Part shown: positions 285-11,412 of the stretch, piece by piece
How positions within the stretch are numbered: the stretch's first letter is position 1
Layout of the letters: each line of letters begins with the position of its first letter
Assembly (NCBI GenBank): GCA_017463375.1
Contig: JAFTPG010000012.1
Coordinates: forward strand, 1-41,459
Source of the DNA: Ruminococcus sp.
Lineage (GTDB): Bacteria > Bacillota > Clostridia > Oscillospirales > Ruminococcaceae
Direction of reading: 5' to 3'
Length of the DNA: 41,459 nt
Program-made: the position numbers and the translations under genes
Notes under the pieces: generated by a model
What the model saw: only the letters and a program-made list of their open reading frames with translations
Told to the model about the DNA's origin: nothing
The model's database searches: none

Positions 285-344
285 CTAAAACATAGTAAAG
301 GCCACCTCGATTCTACCCCTAAATGATAAAGGAGAATGATTAAC

Positions 345-3512
<3,168 letters not shown>

Positions 3513-3529
3513 TATAACACTTGTATAGA

Positions 3530-3556
3530 CAGGACTGATTTTTCAGTCCTGTTTTT
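3530..3556 (+). terminator. Terminator of the dockerin gene
   Basis: A perfect 9-bp stem (CAGGACTGA / TCAGTCCTG) with a TTTT loop is followed by a T-run, 18 bp after the stop codon. Confidence 0.9.
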
Positions 3557-3649
3557 ATTCCCATTCATTCAAAATGCACAAATTGGTATCTAAGTGTTTG
3601 TATGATATGTAGAATCTATATTTTATTTTCAAAAGTCGAAGATTTTCTA

Positions 3650-3678
3650 TTGACAATGCACAAAAACTGTGGTATTAT
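3650..3678 (+). promoter_or_regulatory. Strong promoter of the 3.7-4.3 kb RNA locus
   Basis: A perfect TTGACA, a 17-bp spacer and TATTAT. No conventional open reading frame follows on the plus strand for about 600 bp, so the promoter points to a non-coding or micro-ORF transcript starting near 3685. Confidence 0.8.
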
Positions 3679-3768
3679 ATAAACAACAAAAGAGAACACA
3701 AACAAAAGGTTCTCAAGACTAGATTTACTTGGTTTGAGGTAACACTCAATGTAAATGAATTTTAGCGG

Positions 3769-4197
3769 AAAGGTGAGTGAGTCCAATGGCAGAAAGTGAA
3801 AATCAGCAGCGTGAAGTCGGCGGGCTTGCTGAGTAATTAAAATCAATCACAGGGATTATAGAACTTCAGTTTTGATCCATTATTGAAAAGAAAACATTGA
3901 TTCAAATTATGACGCTAACGCAATGCTGTACAGGAAATCGGCTTCAGCTCTAAAATTAGATACAGGATTATCTGAGATTTCGACTTTACGTCTTGAAATA
4001 TAGAGCCGAAAACACTAAATTTATAATAAAGGTGAGACCGATGAGAAAGTAACTTTTTTAATTTGAACTATATCAATTGAAAAAGGTGAGCCCAATGGAA
4101 GGATATAGATTTTACATACTTTAAAGAAAGAATGTGATCTTATGAAAGTTTTCAGGTATAACTTTAAAGAATAATCTGAAAGGGTGAGTCCACAGGG
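3769..4197 (+). repeat. Four copies of a Shine-Dalgarno-like element, AAAGG(G)TGAG-NCC
   Basis: Copies lie at 3769-3788 (with an extra TGA), 4028-4043, 4082-4098 and 4179-4197. The shared core is AAAGGTGAG, one variable base, CC, and usually ATGG or ATGA. The core matches the complement of the 16S rRNA 3' end (which contains AGGTGATCC) except for a G inserted or replacing the T. The first three copies precede ATG codons opening frames of 16, 3 and 9 codons; the fourth has no ATG after it. They may be translation starts, RNA structural modules, or ribosome-contact sites. Confidence 0.65.
3786..3836 (+). CDS. Possible 16-residue micro-ORF in the structured RNA
   Basis: ATG with AAAGGTGAG upstream, encoding MAESENQQREVGGLAE and then TAA. 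Similar micro-frames in the same transcript encode MRK (4041-4052), MEGYRFYIL (4095-4124) and MKVFRYNFKE (4142-4174, without the repeated element directly before it). I recognise none of these peptides. Translation is suggested only by the ribosome-binding-site-like sequence; the frames may be incidental to RNA structure. Confidence 0.2.
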   Translation: MAESENQQREVGGLAE

Positions 4198-4245
4198 TAA
4201 TTCAGCTAAGTGATGAAAGTCGCTTAATACAATTTAATACAAAAC

Positions 4246-4279
4246 AAACCTCAGGTTGTCAGCCTGAGGTTTTTGTTTT
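4246..4279 (+). terminator. Bidirectional terminator between the RNA locus and rarA
   Basis: A 10-bp stem (AAACCTCAGG / CCTGAGGTTT) with a 7-nt loop. On the plus strand it is followed by TTTTGTTTT; on the minus strand TTTGTTTTG follows, and the rarA stop codon lies in the loop. It serves both convergent transcripts. Confidence 0.88.
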
Positions 4280-5548
4280 GCTGTCGTTTCCGAGAATTTT
4301 CTGACGATAAAGAAAAGCGGACTGTTCCTGTTTATTATCACCAAATCGGTAATAAACACGGTCTTTCAGAGCGTCAGGAAGATACTGCTGCTTCACATAA
4401 TGATTAGGGTAGTCGTGAGGATAGAGATAATTCTGACCGACAACATCTGCGCCTTTTCCATCGAAATGCTTATTCTGGAGATGACGCGGAAAATCAAGCG
4501 CATCGCATGACCTTACATCAGCAATCGCAGCATCAATCGCCGCCTCAGCGCTGTTGGATTTCGGAGCTGTCGCAAGGAGAATTATTGCCTCCGCAAGAGG
4601 AATTCTCGCCTCCGGCAGTCCGAGCTGGAGTGCAGAATCTACACAGCTTTTAACAATCGAAATCGCCTGCGGATAGGCAAGTCCGACATCTTCGGCGGCA
4701 ATTACAAGCAATCGCCGTGAAAGTGAGATAATGTCTCCAGCTTCCATCAGACGAGCAGCATAGTGGAGAGCCGCATTTTCGTCCGAACCACGGATAGATT
4801 TCTGCAAAGCCGAAAGCAAATCGTAGTGCTGGTCGCCGTCACGGTCATAGCGCATATTGCTTCGCTGAGCTAGGATTTTCAGCGATTCCTCAGTAACAGT
4901 AATCTTTCCGTCGGAAATTTCACCGCAGACCACACAAAGCTCCGCAGTATTCATTGCCTTGCGCACGTCACCTCCGCAGCCGTAAGCGATCGTTCGGCAA
5001 ATTTCATCGCTTGCAGCAATTTCAGTTCCGGACTCCTCAGAAATTATACGAAAAGCCCTTTTTATAGCAGGTATAAGCTGTTCAGCTGACACCGGCTTGA
5101 ACTCAAAAACAGTACTACGGCTGATAACAGCGTTGTAGACAGAGAAATACGGATTTTCCGTAGTTGAAGCAATCAGCGTGATATCGCCGTTTTCGATATA
5201 TTCAAGGAGACTCTGCTGCTGCTTTTTGTTGAGATACTGGATCTCATCAAGGTATAGGAGTATTCCGTTCTCCGAGCCGAATGTGCCGATTTCAGCAACA
5301 ACGTCCCTTATGTCTGAGGTTGAAGCATTAGTACCATTGAGCTTATGGAGCGTCATATCGCAGTTCTCGGCAATAATGCGTGCAACGGTAGTTTTTCCAA
5401 CTCCCGACGGACCATAGAAAATCATGTTAGGGATTTTTCCACTGTCAATTATTCGGCGGAGCGGCTTACCCTCAGCAAGAATATGCTCCTGTCCCACAAC
5501 ATCGGCAAGGGTTTTGGGGCGTATTTTATCGGCTAATGGTGTGGACAT
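4259..5548 (-). CDS. rarA: Replication-associated recombination protein A (AAA+ ATPase)
   Basis: RarA/MgsA/WRNIP1 proteins are AAA+ ATPases related to clamp-loader subunits that act at stalled replication forks. The 429-aa length is normal. Walker A is at residues 46-54 (GPSGVGKTT), Walker B at about 97-104 (LLYLDEIQ), and the family's opening PLADKIRPKTLADVVGQEH is intact. The C-terminal half matches the helical tetramerisation region (LARYPQA-like segment LAYPQA, ATAPKSNSA). The ATG is preceded by AAGGAGG with a 6-bp gap. The DUF1801 gene ends 42 bp upstream with no clear promoter between, so the two may be co-transcribed. Confidence 0.95.
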   Translation of the reverse strand: MSTPLADKIRPKTLADVVGQEHILAEGKPLRRIIDSGKIPNMIFYGPSGVGKTTVARIIAENCDMTLHKLNGTNASTSDIRDVVAEIGTFGSENGILLYLDEIQYLNKKQQQSLLEYIENGDITLIASTTENPYFSVYNAVISRSTVFEFKPVSAEQLIPAIKRAFRIISEESGTEIAASDEICRTIAYGCGGDVRKAMNTAELCVVCGEISDGKITVTEESLKILAQRSNMRYDRDGDQHYDLLSALQKSIRGSDENAALHYAARLMEAGDIISLSRRLLVIAAEDVGLAYPQAISIVKSCVDSALQLGLPEARIPLAEAIILLATAPKSNSAEAAIDAAIADVRSCDALDFPRHLQNKHFDGKGADVVGQNYLYPHDYPNHYVKQQYLPDALKDRVYYRFGDNKQEQSAFLYRQKILGNDSKTKTSG

Positions 5549-11220: not shown

Positions 11221-11412
11221 AGATAAGAGATATTCTGCCTTGTTCGGGTAATTATAGTTTTTATAATCCAACACATCTTAAAAGGGAATTCAGCTCCGGC
11301 TGTGGACTGCAGACCTCCCGCTTGCGGAAGAAGGGAGCGAGAAGCATTCGGGCGTTTACCCACCTGCTTCGTGCGGGTTTTATACGCTATATGACGGCAA
11401 GGCGGTTTATTT
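11221..11412 (+). ncRNA. ssrS: 6S RNA
   Basis: 6S RNA binds the housekeeping RNA polymerase holoenzyme by mimicking an open promoter. The closing stem CTGCCTTG (11235-11242) pairs with CAAGGCGG (11398-11405) with one GU. TTCG follows the 5' strand and GACGG precedes the 3' strand. E. coli 6S has the same layout, with its stem followed by UUCG and preceded by GCGGCGG. The interior is a long irregular duplex including CCTGCTTCGTGCGGG. Length of about 190 nt fits. No gene overlaps. A terminator follows at 11433. The 3' end is approximate. Confidence 0.78.

Follow-up and report, generated by a model that had tools for sequence, protein, structure and literature searches.

What is the function of a bacterial transcript that has a strong promoter and a terminator and no conventional gene between them? 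Such a locus lies at 3650-4280 on the forward strand of contig JAFTPG010000012.1 from Ruminococcus sp. (assembly GCA_017463375.1, a genome of 2.28 Mb); the window analysed here is the whole 41,459-nucleotide (nt) stretch of this contig. Our analysis gives high confidence, as far as sequence can, that the RNA is an array of mini open reading frames (mini-ORFs) that are read by ribosomes. A folded transcript with strong ribosome-binding sites suggests a job of engaging ribosomes rather than encoding protein, and a role as ribosome decoy or sensor, to which we give about an even chance, is favoured over all rivals. The anatomy of the RNA is well supported, and its function we infer. Its features along the transcript, with the basis of each in brackets, are:

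3650..3678, + strand: sigma-70 promoter TTGACA-17-TATTAT with TG before the -10 box (sequence, kept in relatives)
3685..4279, + strand: predicted transcript, with ends inferred from promoter and terminator (sequence)
3769..3836, + strand: class A module, Shine-Dalgarno AAAGGUGAG..GUCC and ORF1, MAESENQQREVGGLAE followed by a stop; ATG at 3786, stop codon at 3834-3836 (sequence)
4028..4052, + strand: class B mini-ORF 1, AAAGGUGAGACCG and AUG AGA AAG UAA, that is MRK and stop (motif, frame test)
4082..4124, + strand: class B mini-ORF 2, AAAGGUGAGCCCA and MEGYRFYIL followed by a stop (motif, frame test)
4142..4174, + strand: class C ORF for the basic peptide MKVFRYNFKE, its stop just before the dead site (sequence)
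4175..4228, + strand: class D 'dead' module with Shine-Dalgarno AAGGGUGAGUCCA; the start position 4193-4195 reads CAG instead of AUG, and a hairpin with the loop UGAAAG follows at 4208-4213/4220-4225 (covariation, site counts)
4246..4279, + strand: intrinsic terminator (sequence)

The -35 box TTGACA (3650-3655) and the -10 box TATTAT (3673-3678) are separated by a 17-nt spacer and hold 11 of the 12 consensus bases, so the promoter that the initial annotation had called perfect is present and near-perfect. The terminator it had described is a 12-pair stem (4246-4272) followed by a T-run. Because raw counts in 2500-5500 were near the shuffle level (8 promoter-like sites vs 5.6 in shuffles, 4 terminator-like sites vs 2.7), support for both elements comes from conservation, and relatives share the same promoter at the 5′ end of the RNA. 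As predicted from these elements, the RNA is a standalone, strongly promoted unit from its own promoter to its own terminator. An ORF scan found no sense ORF of at least 40 amino acids inside 3650-4280, and the sole ORF of that size lying mainly in the interval is antisense (3616-3846). The earlier statement that there is no normal reading frame was literally right, but it conceals four short ORFs with ribosome-binding sites. Likewise, the large structured RNA of ruminococci that had been proposed is indeed discrete, conserved, large and structured, but not simply noncoding, because the AUGs of its motif stop early in their own frame and some of its sites have a Shine-Dalgarno without a start.

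The repeat AAAGGTGAG occurs in four copies in the RNA, and we consider it a Shine-Dalgarno site because it matches the complement of the 16S tail. With the tail read in Ruminococcus flavefaciens FD-1 (...GGCUGGAUCACCUCCUUUCU) and judged by duplex energies, the RNA carries several sites complementary to the 16S 3′ tail, as would be looked for in a ribosome-sequestering RNA. At class B sites the pattern GG.TGA.TCC.ATG (GGUGA.UCC.AUG in the RNA), in which the spacer is constant, is followed by a few codons and a stop, which is the sequence of a minigene: Shine-Dalgarno, start, one to few sense codons, stop. Class B ORFs encode MRK, MRI, MRN, MR, ME, MQ, MK or MENFYIA, each ended by a stop, and in two loci (L042, L161) AUG is directly followed by UAA. 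Among 149 distinct elements from 85 loci, 21 of them from other genera, 143 meet a stop within nine sense codons when read in frame 0, but only 61 and 69 do so when read in frames +1 and +2; elements were counted only beyond position 250, which leaves class A out, and duplicates, matches in the P1 hairpin and elements <110 nt from the start were removed. All three stop codons are used (TAA 87, TGA 43 and TAG 19). When unfiltered, the 234 motif matches in 107 stretches lay on average 3.7 codons from the first stop in frame 0 vs 13.0 and 12.7 in the other two, with some matches redundant and 28 zero-codon frames, mostly from the P1 hairpin. Outside the RNA, the same loose pattern matched 19 background sites in the window, and a stop within nine codons followed at 8, 11 and 4 of them in frames 0, +1 and +2, without bias. 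At about one locus per genus, 28 class B elements had a median of 1.5 codons vs 6.5 and 10 (Wilcoxon 2e-5 and 7e-6); the 30 loci of this test were hand-picked (genus g71 twice), and the first element of each was split off by list order. GTG starts were seen in 8 of 160 elements, several of them doubtful. The patterns of classes A, B and C were defined on the same sequences, and summaries of length and charge partly depend on that; the frame comparison does not. Genome-wide, GGTGANNCCNATG has 7 copies in the window's genome (1 in the backward control), two of which are 54 nt apart in the RNA, and 12 copies in FD-1 (5 in the backward control), four of which stand at 70-nt spacing in the RNA.

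In the last module, the Shine-Dalgarno and spacer are kept, and the position of the start codon is CAG in the window. Such start-less sites numbered 89, in 83 of the 107 stretches, next to 145 sites with a start codon, when overlapping GG starts (as in GGG) were counted once. Triplets at the start position of the dead sites were AAG (40), ACA (25), CAG (14), AAA (4), AUC (2) and ACG, AAC, AUA and GUA (1 each). Median predicted energies of 16S pairing were -8.5 both at dead sites and at sites with a start codon. In other genera, several dead sites per locus alternate with class B and class C ORFs. Within the genus, a short ATG ORF ends at most 30 nt before the site, or overlaps it by at most 6 nt, in 69 of 76 dead-site stretches; the commonest gap between ORF and dead site is 7 nt (33 of 69, a count without chance control).

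The RNA has a predicted folding energy of -136 kcal/mol (z-score -2.87), and none of 100 shuffles was as stable. From the alignment of 5′ domains (56 genus homologues out of 82 listed stretches) we obtained a consensus of 42 pairs, 24 of which show at least one double compensatory change. Across the 45-pair 5′ domain, 94.5% of cells are paired and 163 are double-changed vs 37.3 in shuffles; no shuffle in 500 reached any of five measures, and pairing dropped to 44% on a slide by one column. The 3′ hairpin, of 6 base pairs with the loop UGAAAG, is common to 63 distinct modules, with 99.2% of cells paired, double changes in five of six pairs and 19 double-changed cells vs 1.6 in shuffles; four of the five measures were reached by none of 500 shuffles, and the number of pair types was reached by 163. 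Covariation, which the initial annotation had suggested looking for, is found in both the 5′ domain and the 3′ hairpin; stronger covarying helices, P1, P2 and P3, are outside its list of stems. The helices of the 5′ domain are:

3722..3757, + strand: helix P1, covarying hairpin (GAUUUAC.../...GUAAAUG), strands 3722-3728/3751-3757 and 3735-3739/3744-3748 (covariation)
3812..3946, + strand: long-range helix P2, 3812-3819 (within ORF1) with 3939-3946 (covariation)
3833..3910, + strand: helix P3, 3833-3841 (overlapping the stop codon of ORF1) with 3902-3910, double changes in 8 of 9 pairs (covariation)
3853..3878, + strand: hairpin P4, 3853-3863/3870-3878 (alignment consensus)
3947..4006, + strand: stem 3947-3952/4001-4006 of the initial annotation (conserved, little covariation)

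The last stem had been described as closing around two hairpins, and it does enclose P5 (3963-3966/3971-3974, hairpin 3963-3974) and P6 (3982-3984/3990-3992, hairpin 3982-3992). Its counterpart in relatives (UCUAAA/UUUAGA) is conserved and has no clear double-sided compensation. P5 and P6 hardly vary, and the argument for them is therefore one of conservation only. The divergent loci L109, L108 and L084 are without UCUAAA in the alignment; in L109, the 3′ strand of P2 could pair instead with the downstream AUGAAAUC, hinting at an alternative fold.

Homologues, which had been suggested as a check, were found by blastn at an expect value (E) <=1e-4 in 100 of the 125 genomes of the genus, own genome included. 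Among the matches listed, the typical one is a single locus of ~600-700 nt with the same 5′ promoter. The locus is conserved in the R. flavefaciens group, and a pattern search of named genomes gave 29 loci in R. flavefaciens strains (ATCC 19208, FD-1, 007c, MA2007, ND2009, Y1, YL228 and SAb67) and related assemblies. A covariance model of the 3′ module, R1, matched 83 of 125 genomes of the genus, 79 of 396 of the family (31 of 126 genera) and 11 of 147 of the order, 8 of these outside the family; the family and order counts are of matches rather than verified loci, and weak ones include false positives, such as those in protein-coding sequence (L154 in G191, L160 in G307) or without an array (L142, L148). 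Read by eye, arrays are present in at least 15 other genera of the family (g6, g27, g35, g40, g44, g71, g77, g85, g89, g96, g106, g113, g117, g122 and g126) and in another family of the same order (f24, L147). Four loci (L141, L143, L144 and L146) resemble shorter or partial arrays, and at L149, L150, L151 and L156 the stretches read lie mostly upstream of the RNA. A search of the taxonomic class with R2 matched 15 of 245 genomes at E <=0.05, 11 of them outside the order; in 6 of these 11 extra-order loci that were checked no array was found (L206, L207 and L211 by reading, L208, L210 and L214 by motif only).

The number of modules varies between loci. In L067 (G002, taken as R. flavefaciens FD-1), four tandem units of ~70 nt each carry AAAGGTGAGTCCCATGAGATAA, and four GGTGAGTCCCATG stand at 70-nt spacing out of 12 pattern matches genome-wide; these units are a natural minigene array, probably from recent amplification. 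In L055 (G013), four dead 3′ modules are found in 745-1532, separated by other segments and more mini-ORFs, and the promoter lies ~1.4 kb from the last module. One genome (G116, contig C117) has two RNA copies ~3.8 kb apart (L052, L053), and another (G047) has a second 3′ module on a separate contig (C19, C31).

According to our model, the RNA would load several 30S or 70S ribosomes at once. At the mini-ORFs, a ribosome would initiate and stop at once, leading to slow termination, drop-off of peptidyl-tRNA (transfer RNA) or reinitiation on the same site, and class B units would thereby act as ribosome holders. Dead sites could pair with the 16S tail while initiation is blocked, and hold a 30S subunit or the tail of a terminating ribosome. 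The 5′ strands of P2 and P3 fall within ORF1 and over its stop codon; translation of ORF1 would therefore open both helices, and ribosome traffic may switch the fold. The net effect would be to tune translation capacity, with the RNA titrating or sensing free ribosomes, or else initiator tRNA. A more specific version is offered tentatively and at less than even chances: the RNA may be a translation counterpart of 6S RNA, in which arrays of start-stop minigenes and start-less sites park ribosomes and the translation-sensitive 5′ fold reports the number of free ribosomes. In this version, dead sites a few nt 3′ of the stop codon of a basic ORF would capture the 16S tail whenever a ribosome terminates there.

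Several observations weigh against a decoy or sensor. Both transcription and translation of the RNA are predictions from its sequence. Peptides from ORF1 and from the basic ORF may have a role, and a pure decoy needs none; the mini-ORFs could also merely protect the RNA from nucleases. The Shine-Dalgarno pairing energy (-8.5) is within the range of ordinary ORFs of the window (quartiles -9.7 and -2.9, in a crude set of 34 ORFs), and the pattern for the 16S end was unmatched in the window's own genome (G000) and in four other genomes tried. Since many elements are homologous copies, their counts are not those of independent cases, and the 26 first elements alone showed no shortening (p 0.5 and 0.6). 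In a Shine-Dalgarno screen with an energy cut, AUGs stopped no earlier than in frame +1 (p 0.24) and weakly earlier than in frame +2 (p 0.007). This screen loses most of the frame effect because class A and class C ORFs are longer; since it shows little, the early-stop effect belongs to the motif class. Finally, some genomes of the genus are without a match, fairly complete ones included: R1 missed 42 of 125 and blastn (E <=1e-4) 25 of 125, and many of these genomes are incomplete and some are not. Because complete-enough genomes are among the misses, presence of the RNA in every member of the genus is not proven.

Different kinds of explanation can compete with a decoy or sensor. The RNA may be a micropeptide operon, whose products are the acidic peptide of ORF1 and the basic ones of class C, with fold and mini-ORFs serving only to regulate translation of these peptides. 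Class A, the first ORF, has 13-25 codons in 22 loci (peptides were counted only with 11-26 codons after the start), and its peptides, acidic in 16 of 22, resemble each other across genera with partial conservation; in 20 loci, frame 0 is the best conserved (z 8.8 vs 4.1 and 6.0). Class C sites (of the AAGGAGTGATGC.TTATG type), present in other genera as well, lead into short basic ORFs of ~10 codons with a narrow range of length: a length of 7-13 codons after AUG is found for 27 of 31, compared with 10 and 6 in the control frames, and the net charge is positive in 26 of the 27. However, class A codons vary no more at their third than at their second positions (identity 0.366 vs 0.368), and the constraint on the RNA may suffice to explain the conservation of ORF1, because ORF1 overlaps the covarying P2 and P3 in the genus. 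Moreover, the class B ORFs have next to no coding content, and what is conserved in them is the start-stop unit. A peptide function of class A is possible from its sequence, and we regard the micropeptide operon as a whole as unlikely. Similar doubt applies to the idea that ribosome binding merely stabilises or localises a structural RNA, with the sites shielding it from ribonucleases and the actual function residing in the 5′ fold. Selection on that fold is strong, and PMC8708949 reports work in which a transcript was stabilised by nothing more than binding to a strong Shine-Dalgarno ahead of a mini-ORF, but shielding has no obvious need for stops right after AUGs, nor for start-less sites.

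If the RNA were purely noncoding, its purine-rich motif would bind a protein or RNA and its AUGs would be incidental. The covarying folds of the genus agree with this, and an A.UUUAGC-like stretch recurs in 51 dead elements chosen for GUGAG.CC, for which a plain ribosome-binding site has no need. The in-frame stops (143 of 149 elements vs 61 and 69), the unbiased 19 background sites and the use of all three stops argue strongly in the other direction, and leave this explanation very improbable. Short ORFs, helices and a terminator are also the parts of leader-peptide attenuators, so the RNA could be a cis-acting leader or attenuator of the downstream gene. In 13 of the 29 named loci it is followed on the same strand by a gene for what we take, on reading the sequence by eye, to be an HtrA-like protease. 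But the downstream gene is a convergent rarA (AAA+ ATPase with an MgsA C-terminal domain) in the window and in 10 of the 29 named loci, another ORF in 4, and none was called in 2; therefore there is no common cis target, and the conserved co-directional target of an attenuator was not found among these 29 loci. Module number varies too. With its neighbours changing in this way, a cis-regulator was rejected, and we consider it hardly credible.

Known RNA classes were rejected as well. With Rfam 15, the Infernal search that had been proposed gave no match for the RNA at the gathering score; scans with cmscan found only tRNA and 6S elsewhere in the window, 13 matches in 3400-4500 at E up to 10, all far below the gathering score, and only tRNA and 6S in 20 related loci. 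The RNA had earlier been left unmatched to OLE, ROOL, GOLLD and transfer-messenger RNA (tmRNA), and the Rfam covariance models bear this out. A stand-in for a missing tmRNA was also rejected, since tmRNA is present in all three genomes tried, G000 (contig C27), G009 and G240; the RNA itself does not match RF00023, and the tmRNA gene of G000 lies elsewhere, on C27.

Several known systems resemble the RNA in part. Phage lambda bar is a bacterial minigene. Minigenes have the same form, with a strong Shine-Dalgarno, AUG, one or two codons and a stop, and the AUG AGA UAA units of the RNA fit it exactly. The minigenes known to us, however, are each a lone cis element, placed in a leader or an upstream gene, whereas the RNA has several to many units on a transcript of its own that also carries dead sites and a covarying fold. 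The likeness to 6S RNA is one of idea only, that a stable RNA could restrain a central machine by posing as the substrate it normally uses. To RNA polymerase, 6S looks like an open promoter; the RNA here would mimic sites of translation initiation, and Rfam gives it no match to 6S. tmRNA and dual-function small RNAs are also structured RNAs with a short ORF read by ribosomes, but with one tag or one small protein instead of many start-stop units. CsrB-type sponges share a repeated short binding motif, variable copy number and a free-standing transcript, but carry GGA hairpin loops for CsrA instead of a ribosome-binding site with a frame-constrained AUG and stop. We know of no precedent for a free-standing folded bacterial RNA that is an array of start-stop minigenes and start-less ribosome-binding sites. 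If our reading is true, bacteria also use an RNA to set or sense their translation capacity, a role otherwise credited to hibernation proteins and guanosine tetraphosphate (ppGpp). The RNA also offers a directly testable case of natural start-stop minigenes in rumen and gut commensals, and it carries a warning that transcripts classed as noncoding may be made up of ORFs below the size limit of gene finders. Other minigenes are the two-codon mg2 of axe-txe and the mini-ORF of LEE1 (PMC8708949). Like the RNA here, OLE, ROOL and GOLLD have several hundred nt, an elaborate covarying fold and an unclear role, and according to PMC12286853, OLE could sequester the ribosomal protein RpsU and ribosomes bind GOLLD in pull-downs. 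The RNA differs from these three by having no Rfam match and modular mini-ORF arrays of variable number. In the literature searched, which had bioRxiv and most subscription papers outside it, no such RNA is described; unnamed candidates in the supplementary lists of large screens, above all PMC8040213, may include pieces of it.

Upstream of the RNA, the window encodes a large protein (336-3512, + strand) with three Cthe_2159 carbohydrate-binding stretches and a GGM repeat. In many genomes, a small acidic protein, presumably DUF1292-like, is encoded divergently beside the promoter of the RNA; such divergent upstream genes form a cluster of 14 among the named loci, and further cases are L128, L138, L147, L149, L151 and L156. 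A phage origin was considered and rejected: 26 phage records match, and in the 20 listed the match spans only ~40-50 nt, at the promoter end. The window also has a 6S RNA gene (11229-11412, + strand), 7 kb from the RNA, and 6S is also found inside 3 of the 20 related loci scanned (L026, L147 and L161). With 6S near the RNA in the window and in these three loci, the two may share an old neighbourhood.

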